Shown here piece by piece: positions 4,125-33,844 of a stretch of DNA of 33,884 nt (the first letter of the stretch is position 1; each line of letters begins with the position of its first letter). The notes beneath the pieces were generated by a model that was not told the DNA's origin, did not search any database, and saw nothing but the letters and a program-made list of their open reading frames with translations. Made by a program: the position numbers and the translations under genes. The stretch lies in contig CANQBK010000017.1 of assembly GCA_947589485.1 (NCBI GenBank), positions 1 to 33,884 of the forward strand, read 5' to 3'. This stretch comes from an uncultured Clostridia bacterium (GTDB lineage: Bacteria > Bacillota > Clostridia > Oscillospirales > Acutalibacteraceae).

Positions 4125-5924
4125 TCAAGCAATTTGATATATTGTATATGTACGATGAAAAATTGTATATTTGCCTATATACTTAAACATTGTCGAATAC
4201 GGCATATTCTTAAAGACAGCGTAGTATTCCTGCAAGTTTATTTCTGATGTTTTATTTGTATCTTTTTCGTTACACAAAATAATATCATTACCGTTTACAT
4301 TTTGTTTTGAAAATTCATTCAAAAACAAATACACTTTTTTGTCGGTTTTAAGTGAAGCCATCTTTTTTTCAATATCCTTATCTTCCGTAATATATGTCAT
4401 AAAAACCTTATCAGCATCATAGATTTCAAACGGAAGAACGGATATAAGCCACGTTTGGTCATATTGCGTATCAACAAAAATACATTCACTGTCTGCCGTA
4501 AGCTCGCTTAAACTGTTTATTGTTCGTTCATTGTCAAACAGATAAGTTATACCCCTTCCTGCAAGAGAGTGTAATACGACAGCCGAAAATATTATTGTAA
4601 GCACAATTTTTCTGAACTTAAACCTTGTAAATATAAAATAAGCAAAATATACAAACAACAATGCAACAAGCGGATATACAATAAACATATAGCGATTAAC
4701 ATACTGCATATCCATAAAATTTATACGGTAAGCCGTAAAAATACAAATAACGGCAACACATATAAAAAACAAATAAAACAACGGATTAATTTTTTTAACA
4801 TCTTTTTTAAAGCCTTTTATTATTTTACCAAACCTAAGGCATTTTATTTTTTGGGGAAGGTTTTTAAATCCGCATAAGAATTTTTTTACGCTCGGATTAT
4901 TTCTGAACAAATATAAAATCGGCAATGAGAAAATCACCGCAATAAGTATAAATACAGGAACCGTGTACAGCAACACCAAAGGCTCCGAACCCATAATCGA
5001 CATAATATCCCTTAAAATATAATTGCACAAAAGATCAAGCTGTTTAATAAAAATAGGGAATGATGTATCGCCCGATTCCTGAAGCAGTTGAGAAACCGTA
5101 TACGGAAAAATCAAAATCGAAAGCACGGTTCCGCCAAGCACAGAAAATCCGTATTTCCAAAAGCTTTTATATTGTTTCTTGACAAGGTAGTATATACAGA
5201 AAAACACAGCCGTAAAAAAGGCTATTATCAAAAACGAATGATGAGTAAGCGCACCCAACGCAGTAACAATTACCAAAGAGAGATACATTTTCTTTGTCGG
5301 CTTATATTGATTTACAAGCAATTTAGAATGGAGATACATAAATATAACCGTCCACATTACAAGCATACAATACATTCTTATAAATATAGTAATATCTATT
5401 GCGCCTGCACAGAATCCCCAAAGCAAGCAAACCAAAAGAGCGAGATATTTTGATTTAAGCATATTTTTTGAGAGCTTATAAAGAAATATCTGAGTTACAA
5501 TAAAGCAAATATAATTAATTATATATCCAAACACGGGTGAAAACGTATTCGGAAAAAAGGAACAGATTGTGTGCAAAACCGCATAATACAAGGGAGGGTG
5601 TCTGTCTTTTGATTGATTATACCATACGGAATCATATCTAAATGTTTCGTCGGGTTGTACGGTAATATATTCTCTTAAAGCATCGCCCGAAATCCATTCA
5701 TTAACGTTTTTATAATCTTTTTGCCATATATAATCGACATATATAAAAGGTTCATAGAAGCTGTTTGATAATCCGTAGCTAAAAACCTCATCGGAATGAT
5801 ACCCTTTTTTTCTATCTACAATTATATCGGTAATATTAAGCATTTGCAGTACGATTATTACAACAAGTATGATTACCGAAACAAATTTAAGATTTTTTAT
5901 TTTATTTAATTTTTCTTTCAACAT
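4125..5924 (-). CDS. Polytopic membrane protein resembling GT39/PMT-type glycosyltransferases
   Basis: About 600 aa, many TM segments, N-terminal ...RKGYHSDEVFSYGLSN... acidic loop and DRHPPLYYAVLH motif; start placed at MLKEKLNK (good GGAGGGG SD), not the ORF-track start at 5993. Confidence 0.75.
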   Translation of the reverse strand: MLKEKLNKIKNLKFVSVIILVVIIVLQMLNITDIIVDRKKGYHSDEVFSYGLSNSFYEPFIYVDYIWQKDYKNVNEWISGDALREYITVQPDETFRYDSVWYNQSKDRHPPLYYAVLHTICSFFPNTFSPVFGYIINYICFIVTQIFLYKLSKNMLKSKYLALLVCLLWGFCAGAIDITIFIRMYCMLVMWTVIFMYLHSKLLVNQYKPTKKMYLSLVIVTALGALTHHSFLIIAFFTAVFFCIYYLVKKQYKSFWKYGFSVLGGTVLSILIFPYTVSQLLQESGDTSFPIFIKQLDLLCNYILRDIMSIMGSEPLVLLYTVPVFILIAVIFSLPILYLFRNNPSVKKFLCGFKNLPQKIKCLRFGKIIKGFKKDVKKINPLFYLFFICVAVICIFTAYRINFMDMQYVNRYMFIVYPLVALLFVYFAYFIFTRFKFRKIVLTIIFSAVVLHSLAGRGITYLFDNERTINSLSELTADSECIFVDTQYDQTWLISVLPFEIYDADKVFMTYITEDKDIEKKMASLKTDKKVYLFLNEFSKQNVNGNDIILCNEKDTNKTSEINLQEYYAVFKNMPYSTMFKYIGKYTIFHRTYTIYQIA

Positions 5925-5950
5925 AGCCCCTCCCCTCATCATTATATTTC

Positions 5951-6182
5951 GGCGCAGTGCCTGCGCCCTCAATTCGCGGTGCCGAGCCGGCACGGGCGAT
6001 TCGCGTTGTCGCTCACTCCGTTCGCTCTTACTGAAAGCAATAAGTACATTCGCGCGGCGTTAGCTAATATTCCCATAATTAAAAGTTTCGCTCAAGCCTT
6101 TTCAAAGGCTTGCGGATTCCAAAGGCAGAGCCTTTGGTGGGTTTTTAAGGGCGAAGCCCTTAACTGCGCCGGAGCCCTTAAC
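5951..6182 (+). repeat. Composite intergenic repeat array B: M1-M2-core-tail plus a truncated second tail
   Basis: GCGCAG-TGC-CTGCGC, GTGCCG-AGC-CGGCAC, core ...CGCTCACTCCGTTCGCTC...CGCGCGGCGTTAGC...ATAATTAAAAGTTTCG, then three tail hairpins; same sequence recurs in arrays C-F. Confidence 0.95.
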
Positions 6183-10885: not shown

Positions 10886-11365
10886 TTATTTTATCATAAA
10901 CAATGGCTGACCGTATTCCACAACCTGACCGTTATCCACACAGATTTTGGTAATTTCTCCGCTTTTTTCAGCCGTGACCTCATTCATAAGTTTCATTGCC
11001 TCTATCAAACACAAAACGTCGCCTTTGTTTACCTTTGTACCAACGGATACATAAGGTTCCTTATCAGGAGAAGGCGCCGAATAAAACACTCCTACCATAG
11101 GTGAAGTAACTGCCGAAGAACCGTCTTGTATTTGTTCCGATTGCTCCGGCTGAATAAATGGTGAGTTTGACTGGATTGTTTCGGTTGCGGCAGGCGCTTT
11201 TACGGTGGACGTCACCGTTATCGGTTCTGCTGCGTTTACTGAAACATATTCTTTTTTTTGGACGATGACAAGATGTTCACCCTCCGAATTTTTTATATCG
11301 AGCTTAGTCGCCTTTGAATCATTAAAAGCACTGAGAAGTTCTTTTATTTCATCAACACTATACAT
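10886..11365 (-). CDS. accB: Biotin carboxyl carrier protein of acetyl-CoA carboxylase
   Basis: C-terminal biotinyl domain with EAMKLMNEV. Confidence 0.95.
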   Translation of the reverse strand: MYSVDEIKELLSAFNDSKATKLDIKNSEGEHLVIVQKKEYVSVNAAEPITVTSTVKAPAATETIQSNSPFIQPEQSEQIQDGSSAVTSPMVGVFYSAPSPDKEPYVSVGTKVNKGDVLCLIEAMKLMNEVTAEKSGEITKICVDNGQVVEYGQPLFMIK

Positions 11366-11411
11366 TTTAACAATCCCACCTTATAAATATAATAAAATTT
11401 TGTAAAAGCCC

Positions 11412-12119
11412 GTGCGGCGCAGTGCCTGCGCTGTCAATTCGCGTTGTCGCTCACTCCGTTCGCTCGTACTGCAAACCAAAACTACATTCGCGCGGCGTTA
11501 GTTATTTTAACCATAGTTAAAAGTTTCGGTGCGGTGCCCGCACTGTCGATTCGCGTTATCGCTCGCTCCGCTCGCTCGTACTGCAAACCAAAACTACATT
11601 CGCGCGGCGTTAGTTATTTTAACCATAGTTAAAAGTTTCGGTGCGGTGCCCGCGCTCTCAATTCGCGGTGCCGAGCCGGCACGGGCGATTCGCGTTGTCG
11701 CTCGCTCCGCTCGCTCGTACTGCAAAAGATAAGTACAGTCGCGCGGCATAAGTTTATATTCCCATAATTAAAAGTTTCGGTCAAGCCTTTTCAAAGGCTT
11801 GCGGATTCCAAAGGCAGAGCCTTTGGCAGGTTTTTAAGGGCGGAACCCTTAACCATCAATTTCCCTGCTTGTACTGCAAACCAAAACTACATTCGCGCGG
11901 CGTTAGTTATTTTAGCCATAATTAAAAGTTTCGGTCAAGCCTTTTCAAAGGCTTGCGGATTCCAAAGGCAGAGCCTTTGGCAGGTTTTTAAGGGCGGAGC
12001 CCTTAACGCGCAGTGCCTGCGCACTCAATTCGCGGTGTCGCTCACTCCGTTCGCTCGTACTGCAAACCAAAACTACATTCGCGCGGCGTTAGTTATTTTA
12101 GCCATAATTAAAAGTTTCG
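11412..12119 (+). repeat. Composite repeat array C: five cores and two full three-hairpin tails, between fabF and accB
   Basis: Cores ending AAAAGTTTCG at about 11528, 11640, 11770-11779, 11935 and 12119; M1-type hairpins at 11417-11431, 11529-11543, 11641 onward and 12008-12022; M2 within the third unit; tails ending near 11853 and 12007. Confidence 0.95.
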
Positions 12120-12139: not shown

Positions 12140-13360
12140 TTAAATTTTCTTCATAACGATGCACGCATTGTGACCGCCAAAGCCAAACGTAGTGGAAAGC
12201 GACATAGTAAGCGGTACATTTACCGCTTTGTTCGGAGTATAATCCAAATCACATTCCGGGTCAGGTTCTTTGTAGCCTATTGTTGGCGGTACAATACCCT
12301 CATCAAGCGCCATTACCGCCGCAATCGCTTCAACCGCTCCGGCTGCACCAAGCATGTGTCCCGTCATAGACTTTGTAGAGCTTATATGAACCTTATACGC
12401 ATCATCACCAAAAGCCAGCTTAAACGCTTTTGTTTCGCTCGAATCATTCATAGGCGTACTTGTTCCGTGAGCATTTATATAAATTTCTTCTCCTCCGCAA
12501 TATCCGGACTCATCAAGTGCCAGCTTTATGCACCTTGCTGCGCCCTGTGCGTTGGGGTCGGGTGCGGTAATGTGGTAAGCGTCGCAAGTATTGCCGTATC
12601 CCGATATTTCCGCATACATCTTTGCGCCTCTTGCCTTTGCGTGTTCATATTCTTCCAAGATAAGAATACCTGCGCCTTCACCCATTACAAAACCGTTTCT
12701 GCGTTTGTCAAAAGGTATTGATGCCTGAGTGGGATCGTCACTCATAGACAGTGCCTTACAGCTTGTAAAACCTTTTATTGCAAGAGGGTGTATCGCTGCT
12801 TCCGAACCGCCTGTTATGATTGCATCGGCATACCCCGACTTTATTGCGTGGAACGCTTCTCCAACCGCATGTGTCGATGTCGAACACGCTGTAACCACCG
12901 GCAGGCACGGTCCCTTTGCATCATACGCTATTGCAATATTGCCCGACGCAATATTGCCGATCATCATAGGAATAAAAAACGGCGATATATTTTTATTGTT
13001 GAACATATTAAAGCATTGATCATAAAAAGTCTGTATGCCGCCAATTCCGGAGCCTACATATACTCCGAAACGTTCGGGCTCAATGTTTCCTTTTATGTTA
13101 CTGTCATTTACCGCCTGTGCCGCTGCGGCAATAGCGTATTGACAAAAAAGATCCAGCTTCCGACATTCTCTTTTCTCTATATATTCCATCGGATCAAAAC
13201 CTTTAACCTCGGCGGCAACTTTTGCTTTTGTCATTTCCGGGTCAAAGCTCTTAATAATATCTATACCGCAAACACCGTTTTTCATAGACGTCCAAGTGTC
13301 TTTAACATTATTTCCGACAGGCGTTACTGCGCCTAAACCTGTTATAACAACTCTCCTCAT
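12140..13360 (-). CDS. fabF: Beta-ketoacyl-ACP synthase II
   Basis: MRRVVITGLGAVTPVGN...VVTACSTSTHAVGEAF...NAHGTSTPMND...KSMTGHMLGAAG. Confidence 0.97.
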   Translation of the reverse strand: MRRVVITGLGAVTPVGNNVKDTWTSMKNGVCGIDIIKSFDPEMTKAKVAAEVKGFDPMEYIEKRECRKLDLFCQYAIAAAAQAVNDSNIKGNIEPERFGVYVGSGIGGIQTFYDQCFNMFNNKNISPFFIPMMIGNIASGNIAIAYDAKGPCLPVVTACSTSTHAVGEAFHAIKSGYADAIITGGSEAAIHPLAIKGFTSCKALSMSDDPTQASIPFDKRRNGFVMGEGAGILILEEYEHAKARGAKMYAEISGYGNTCDAYHITAPDPNAQGAARCIKLALDESGYCGGEEIYINAHGTSTPMNDSSETKAFKLAFGDDAYKVHISSTKSMTGHMLGAAGAVEAIAAVMALDEGIVPPTIGYKEPDPECDLDYTPNKAVNVPLTMSLSTTFGFGGHNACIVMKKI

Positions 13361-16455: not shown

Positions 16456-16674
16456 CTGCGGCGCCGAGCCCGCACTGTCAATTCGCGGCGCCGAAGCCGG
16501 CGCAGGCAATTCGCGTTATCGCTCGCTCCGCTCGCTCGTATTGAGAGCAATAACTACATTCGCGCGGCGTTAGTTAATGTTTCCATAATTAAAAGTTTCG
16601 CTCAAGCCTTTTCAAAGGCTTGCGGATTCCAAAGGCAGAGCCTTTGGTGGGTTTTTAAGGGCAACGCCCTTAAC
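16456..16674 (+). repeat. Composite repeat array D: chimeric hairpin-M2-core-tail
   Basis: GCGCCGAGCC|CGCACTGTCAATTCGCG, GCGCCG-AAGC-CGGCGC, core, three tail hairpins. Confidence 0.95.
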
Positions 16675-16690
16675 TGTAAATTATATTAAC

Positions 16691-21009: not shown

Positions 21010-21358
21010 CGCAGTGCCTGCATAGTTAAGGGCTTTGCCCTTAAAAACCCACCAAAGGCTCTGCCTTTGGAATCCGCAAGCCTTTGAAAAGGCTTGAGCG
21101 AAACTTTTAACTATGGGTACATAAACTAACGCCGCGCGAACGCACTTATCTTTTGCAGTAAGAGCGAACGGAGTGAGCGACAACGCGAATCGACAGTGCG
21201 GGCACCGCACCTTGACCGAAACTTTTAGTTATGGGTACATAAACTTATGCCGCGCGAACGTACTTATTGCTTTCAGTACGAGCGAACGGAGTGAGCGACA
21301 ACGCGAATCGACAGTGCGGGCACCGCACCGCGAATCGCCTGCGCCGGCTCGGCGCGGT
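21010..21358 (-). repeat. Composite repeat array E (opposite orientation): M2-M1-core-scar-M1-core-tail
   Basis: Tail hairpins 21024-21100, two cores, hairpins CGGTGCGGTGCCCGCACTGTCGATTCGCG (x2) and GCGCCGAGCCGGCGC on the minus strand. Confidence 0.95.
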
Positions 21359-33417: not shown

Positions 33418-33490
33418 ATCAATCCACCCTTAGACATATTCCGTATAATTATATGCCTTAAAGATAGGATTATTGCCTTTAGAACATAAA

Positions 33491-33838
33491 TGCCGCACGA
33501 AAAACTTTTTGCTTTCAGTACGAACGGGAGAATAGATAGTTAAGGGCTCCGCCCTTAAAAACCTGCCAAAGGCTCTGCCTTTGGAATCCGCAAGCCTTTG
33601 AAAAGGCTTGACCGAAACTTTTGACTATGGGTACAATAGCTAACGCCGCGCGAATGTACCTGTTGCTTTCAGTACGAGCGAACGGAGTGAGCGACAACGC
33701 GAATTGACAGCGCAGGCACTGCGCCGAAACTTTTAATTATGGATACATTAACTAACGCCGCGCGAATGTACTTGTTGCTTTCAGTACGAGCGAACGGAGT
33801 GAGCGACAACGCGAATCGCCTGCGCCGGCTCGGCGCAT
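33491..33838 (-). repeat. Composite repeat array F (opposite orientation): M2-core-M1-core-tail plus degenerate core fragment
   Basis: Tail hairpins 33538-33610, two full cores, GGCGCAGTGCCTGCGCTGTCAATTCGCG and GCGCCGAGCCGGCGCAGGCGATTCGCG on the minus strand. Confidence 0.95.
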
Positions 33839-33844
33839 TTTCGC

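Follow-up and report, generated by a model that had tools for sequence, protein, structure and literature searches.

The window analysed here, 33,884 nucleotides long, is contig 17 of a draft genome that totals 2.39 Mb and is split into 160 contigs. It carries a fatty acid synthesis operon whose genes, in the order given by the initial annotation, read fabH-fabD-fabG-fabF, then accB-fabZ-accC-accD-accA, all on the minus strand. The closest named relatives of its FabF come from uncultured Clostridiales/Ruminococcus genomes, namely RUG669 (80%) and RUG11816 (74%). Between fabF (12140-13360, minus strand) and accB, encoding BCCP (10886-11365, minus strand), lies a gap of 774 bp, and 713 bp of it are taken up by a repeat array (11407-12119). 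As had been noted, the array nearly fills this gap in an otherwise tight operon. It begins approximately 20 bp past the fabF stop codon and leaves the ribosome-binding site of accB (AAGGTGGG) undisturbed. The array proved real, a five-copy family being found at 11407-12119 with Tandem Repeats Finder scores of 382-497, and, as noted, no other element of the window is as large, the remaining four measuring 223-351 bp. Thus, a highly structured insert of 700 bp is tolerated within an operon of essential lipid-synthesis genes.

Repeat analysis resolved the array into a mosaic of two kinds of module, arranged as B B B C B C B, located on the plus strand and hence antisense to the operon. It is thus not the simple five-core repeat of the earlier description but a B/C mosaic in which one B copy is truncated at its 5' end. 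The five B units of approximately 112 nt, one of them truncated, are accompanied by two C modules of three hairpins each, and the five-copy family shows spacings of 112, 139, 154 and 186 bp. On the plus strand, units 1 (11415-11526, including an A hairpin) and 2 (11527-11638) are followed by unit 3 (11658-11780), which has an additional A hairpin and, by comparison of copies, forms a separate subtype. Unit 4 (11867-11934) is truncated at its 5' end and lacks the A and GA hairpins, and unit 5 (12006-12119) comes to within 20 bp of the stop codon of fabF. A complete B unit starts with a GC-rich A hairpin, a linker, (G/A)ATTCGCG, and the GA hairpin (TCGCTCACTCCGTTCGCTC), and continues through a variable stretch to an AT-rich end, AAAAGTTTCGG. 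The C module consists of three consecutive hairpins, p5 (CAAGCCTTTTCAAAGGCTTG), p6 (CCAAAGGC-AGA-GCCTTTGG) and p7 (TTAAGGGCGGAGCCCTTAA). Both copies lie on the plus strand, C module 1 at 11782-11852 (p5 11782-11801, p6 11808-11826, p7 11834-11852) and C module 2 at 11936-12006 (p5 11936-11955, p6 11962-11980, p7 11988-12006). Elsewhere in the genome the modules are combined as B-C, B-B-C and B-C-B-C, or in nested or inverted arrangements. A coding role was rejected, the frames of the array being merely 36-67 aa long, plus one of 228 aa antisense to fabF. A search of Rfam 15 returned no RNA family over its gathering score; two matches to nos_TCE (E 0.5-1) were attributed to chance.

Mutual information was calculated over 95 B copies without presupposing any fold. 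Among the strongest signals were pairs 17-23 (AT/CG/GC) and 14-26 (CG/TA) of the A hairpin, represented in unit 1 by GCGCAG-TGC-CTGCGC (11417-11431), the stem of which covaries over the 95 genomic copies. Equally among the strongest were pairs 49-55 (AT/GC) and 46-58 (CG/TA) of the GA hairpin (11447-11465 in unit 1, minus strand). Pairing reached 97.5% and 98.7%, compared to shuffle means of 88% (maximum 91%), and dropped to 0-52% when the partners were slid. The four G.A mismatch positions of the GA hairpin are identical in 95 of 95 copies, drawn from 54 arrays, and are located between and outside the covarying pairs. Read on the minus strand, this hairpin is GA-GC-GA-AC-GGA-GT-GA-GC-GA, in which two tandem G.A blocks accompany a GNA-type loop. 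In relatives the same GA-hairpin core carries other loops, including GCA and GCAA, and compensatory changes occur in the p5 and p6 stems as well. A further stem, p4 (GTACT...AGTAC), had been suspected by eye; pair counts did not support it, although the columns used were perhaps one out of register. Template switching at quasi-palindromes would erase mismatches, and their invariance therefore points to selection; together with the covarying flanking pairs, it suggests selection on a folded single strand. Both RNA and DNA accommodate tandem G.A pairs stably but not the complementary T.C mismatches, and the folded strand of the GA hairpin is thus probably the minus strand. Invariant tandem G.A mismatches with covarying neighbours offer a concrete and testable way into the question of how repeats of this kind are recognised.

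The array is one of five element copies in the window. The others are found at 5947-6169 (plus strand), separating the rpmA terminator from the gene that follows; at 16459-16682 (plus strand), upstream of fabH; at 21022-21348 (minus strand), between divergent YitT-family and LysR-family genes; and at 33489-33839 (minus strand), followed by another repeat module cut by the contig end. The third of these fills the YitT-family/LysR-family gap and ends approximately 40 bp ahead of the LysR start codon, so that the promoter of the LysR-family gene must be in or beyond the repeat. The module at the contig end (33840-33884) has hairpins of its own (CGCCCGCCTTTTTTAAAAGGCGG... AAGGGACAGCG...), and its copies adjoin elements on contigs C1, C7 and C9. 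In a census of 1.04 Mb of the genome, taken as plain stretches, we counted 64 clusters, corresponding to one per 16 kb and 1.6% of the DNA; they hold 1-5 B units with C modules, and the fabF-accB array is the largest. Genome-wide, a degenerate GA-hairpin pattern had 303 exact instances, compared to 0 for the reversed control pattern. The family thus comprises extragenic palindromes in more than 100 copies and in mosaic clusters, as do REP/BIME sequences. With genes called in the sample by a simple coding-potential script, only one of the 64 clusters overlapped a called gene, whereas random placement expects 58.7. For 39 clusters both neighbouring genes were known, giving 24 tandem, 10 convergent and 5 divergent gaps against a background of 679, 65 and 70, respectively. 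Convergent gaps are consequently enriched (odds ratio 4.5, Fisher p = 5e-4). In tandem gaps, 11 elements lie on the strand of the genes and 10 on the opposite strand (n = 21).

Comparison with sister species revealed empty sites. The fabF-accB gap measures 15-143 bp in 29 congeners and contains the element in none of them; RUG669 and congener G026 share an identical junction. Likewise, at the junction of rpmA with the next gene, the two congeners that have that gene in the same place (G050 and G004) show no element, and the rpmA terminator directly adjoins the gene. The neighbour in the window (4125-5924, minus strand) encodes a protein of approximately 600 aa with no Pfam match. Homologues (46-47%) occupy the same place in G050 and G004, and in G002 an obg-like gene, judged by eye, stands instead. 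Both inserts hence appear lineage-specific, the array apparently having entered the operon after the lineage had split from these relatives. With regard to a target-site duplication of the MITE type, the nearest empty sites are too diverged for base-by-base alignment. A different short repeat (GAGTGGAGAGTGGA... / GCATTATGAATTATGCATT-like) occupies the fabF-accB gap in L139, L143, L144 and L148 (G004, G011, G045 and G022), indicating that unrelated repeats entered this spot in sister species and that the gap tolerates insertions.

The array itself appears to have grown partly by local duplication, as judged from the likeness of its units. Units 1, 2 and 5 share 93-97% mutual identity, and the truncated unit 4 has the same core (97%). 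Unit 3 is only 83-85% identical to units 1, 2 and 5, its best match (95%) being a copy on contig C5. Over all B copies, identity was 0.84 within arrays and 0.80 between arrays, a difference reached in 0 of 1000 permutations. This likeness is a sign of local change in copy number and agrees with the variability that had been expected; the actual number of copies is uncertain in a draft of 160 contigs. Contigs C1, C3, C7, C9, C11, C14, C16 and others start or finish inside the repeat, which is probably the chief reason why the assembly is so fragmented. In short-read assembly, tandem copies become mis-joined, and with numerous contigs ending in the repeat, the array might be a chimaera of unrelated copies created in the draft. 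We consider such an artefact scarcely credible, since the flanks are a continuous fabF and accB with a normal stop codon and ribosome-binding site, and the internal copies have array-specific sequence in common.

The initial annotation had proposed a dedicated device, in which an attenuator, a processing site or an internal promoter uncouples fabF from accB-accA. The location within an essential operon and the strong folding of the array (z -2.6 on the operon-sense strand, z -4.4 on the antisense strand) would suit such a role, as would a promoter-like sequence, TTGACC-18-TAAAAT, directed toward accB (11938-11909, minus strand), which agrees with the consensus at 10 of 12 positions. However, matches of this kind are not above chance in the region, which holds two promoter-like sequences compared to 1.1 +/- 1.2 after shuffling. 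Terminator-like matches, likewise two, are near the shuffle mean and all antisense to the operon. Element copies in general are richer in promoter-like sequence, at least 9 of 12 positions matching on the minus strand of 37 of 95 B copies and of 9 of 95 shuffled ones, but the -10 hexamer varies (TACATT, TAAAAT, TACATA and others); a minus-strand promoter consensus was therefore demoted to a rival explanation. Hundreds of copies elsewhere, the avoidance of genes, the preference for convergent gaps and the even orientation (11:10) argue against a dedicated terminator, attenuator or promoter, and sister species do without the insert. The array thus shows no sign of a purpose-built switch, and we regard the proposed device as quite unlikely. 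An incidental promoter, or an incidental effect on accB-accA levels, is possible, and the strong folding makes effects on mRNA decay or partial attenuation conceivable, as reviewed for BIME and ERIC insertions (PMC3049150). Any effects of the array on the operon are probably incidental.

Selection might instead act on the hairpins as RNA: transcribed elements could stabilise RNA, serve as RNase sites or yield small RNAs from a promoter of their own. Covariation, GNA/GNRA-like loops on one strand and promoter-like sequence on that same strand are consistent with this. However, a role in mRNA would orient the elements with the genes, and their orientation relative to tandem genes is random; this points rather to DNA in single-stranded form while the element is mobilised, or to a free-standing RNA. 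Judged from the orientation of these 21 elements alone, single-stranded DNA during mobilisation is likelier than mRNA. Enrichment in convergent gaps furthermore suggests tolerance rather than use, and Rfam gives no matching family, so that selection as RNA seems unlikely. A true REP/BIME system, with a REP-associated tyrosine transposase as its mobilising enzyme, would account for palindromic, mosaic, intergenic repeats in hundreds of copies that form single-strand hairpins. Yet none of 16 element-bearing genomes had a match to that transposase (NF047646) above the cut-off, and no GTAG or CGTC tag was noticed by eye in the unit alignments and flanks. The intact Y1 protein of the genome is an IS200/IS605 transposase (143 bits versus 33 bits), and none of the four Y1 loci inspected has an element beside it. 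A true REP/BIME system is accordingly very improbable. Two other parents were also rejected: an IS200 parent, because the Y1 genes are not flanked by the element, and a transposon bounded by terminal inverted repeats, none being found in 1.04 Mb.

Taken together, the array is most likely a copy, expanded locally, of a mosaic palindromic repeat that is dispersed over intergenic regions and behaves as a non-autonomous mobile (selfish) element, a reading to which we assign a probability of about 0.75. Its many copies, the empty sites in sister species, the avoidance of genes, the lack of a consistent orientation and the covarying hairpins all argue for it. Under this interpretation, the hairpins would be recognised as single-stranded DNA by a mobilising enzyme, and the array would have grown after insertion through tandem duplication. 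The fab-acc transcript would read through it, and any effect on fabF or accB mRNA, be it through spacing, RNA decay or partial attenuation, would be a by-product. More speculatively, and on balance doubtful, the elements could represent mobile mosaic repeats of a new class. Their transposition signal would be a single-stranded hairpin containing a pair of tandem G.A blocks, recognised by an enzyme other than a RAYT or a known insertion-sequence transposase, perhaps one that phages carry.

Among known systems, the BOX elements found in Streptococcus pneumoniae and S. suis are modular (boxA-boxB(n)-boxC), intergenic and hairpin-forming, with variable internal copy number and a patchy occurrence across species (PMC3049150). 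Pneumococcal BOX, RUP and IS elements are over-represented between convergent genes, in a test of the same design as ours (PMC3049150). The present element shares with BOX its modular, intergenic and hairpin-forming character, the variable number of middle units, the convergent enrichment and the patchy spread, a likeness at the level of architecture and published description. It differs in host group, nested modules, invariant tandem G.A mismatches and the rarity of inverted ends. REP/BIME sequences are GTAG- and CGTC-tagged palindromes (PMC3733652) associated with RAYTs (PMC2817692). Common to these and our element are hundreds of short extragenic palindromes in mosaic clusters, single-strand hairpins and alternative complementary stem residues, whereas its units are longer (approximately 112 nt versus 20-40 nt), with no tag noticed and no RAYT above the cut-off. 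Like MITEs, the element is small, non-coding, folded, present in high copy and missing at orthologous sites of relatives; unlike them, it has no consistent terminal inverted repeats, an inverted end sequence occurring in just 3 of 43 clusters, and no parent insertion sequence in the sampled contigs. The element is best read as a new family of mosaic palindromic repeats that behave like pneumococcal BOX or enterobacterial BIMEs but, with no RAYT above the cut-off and inverted ends rare, are classed as neither. The observation is real and ordinary in kind; what is new is the family. Its core hairpin strings are absent from the literature searched, and the repeat surveys checked do not name the host group. 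The family is thus without description in that literature, its host belonging to an uncultured gut/rumen-type group of Bacillota.

The distribution of the two modules among relatives was also analysed. A search with the A-B-C unit gave matches in 50 of the 61 genomes sampled from the genus. Among the matches listed, those outside the own genome cover module C alone, which suggests that the B core hardly occurs outside this species. The GA hairpin with its linker was found as a pattern in 8 of 61 congeners, the own genome included. Module C is patchy in the family: of 150 genomes, 23 contain it, as do 23 of 135 genera (both counts with the own genome), and in another genus (G151) 56 of 56 bases are identical. 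A plasmid search gave no match to the element. An exact 24-base piece of C was present in four viral contigs, in two of which it lies between or beside clear phage structural genes. The patchy spread of the C module and its viral copies would fit horizontal movement, as far as sequence comparison can indicate. On the viral contigs, C-module hairpins were observed among tape measure and tail genes (L249:7935-8277) and among baseplate genes (L246, near 8777).
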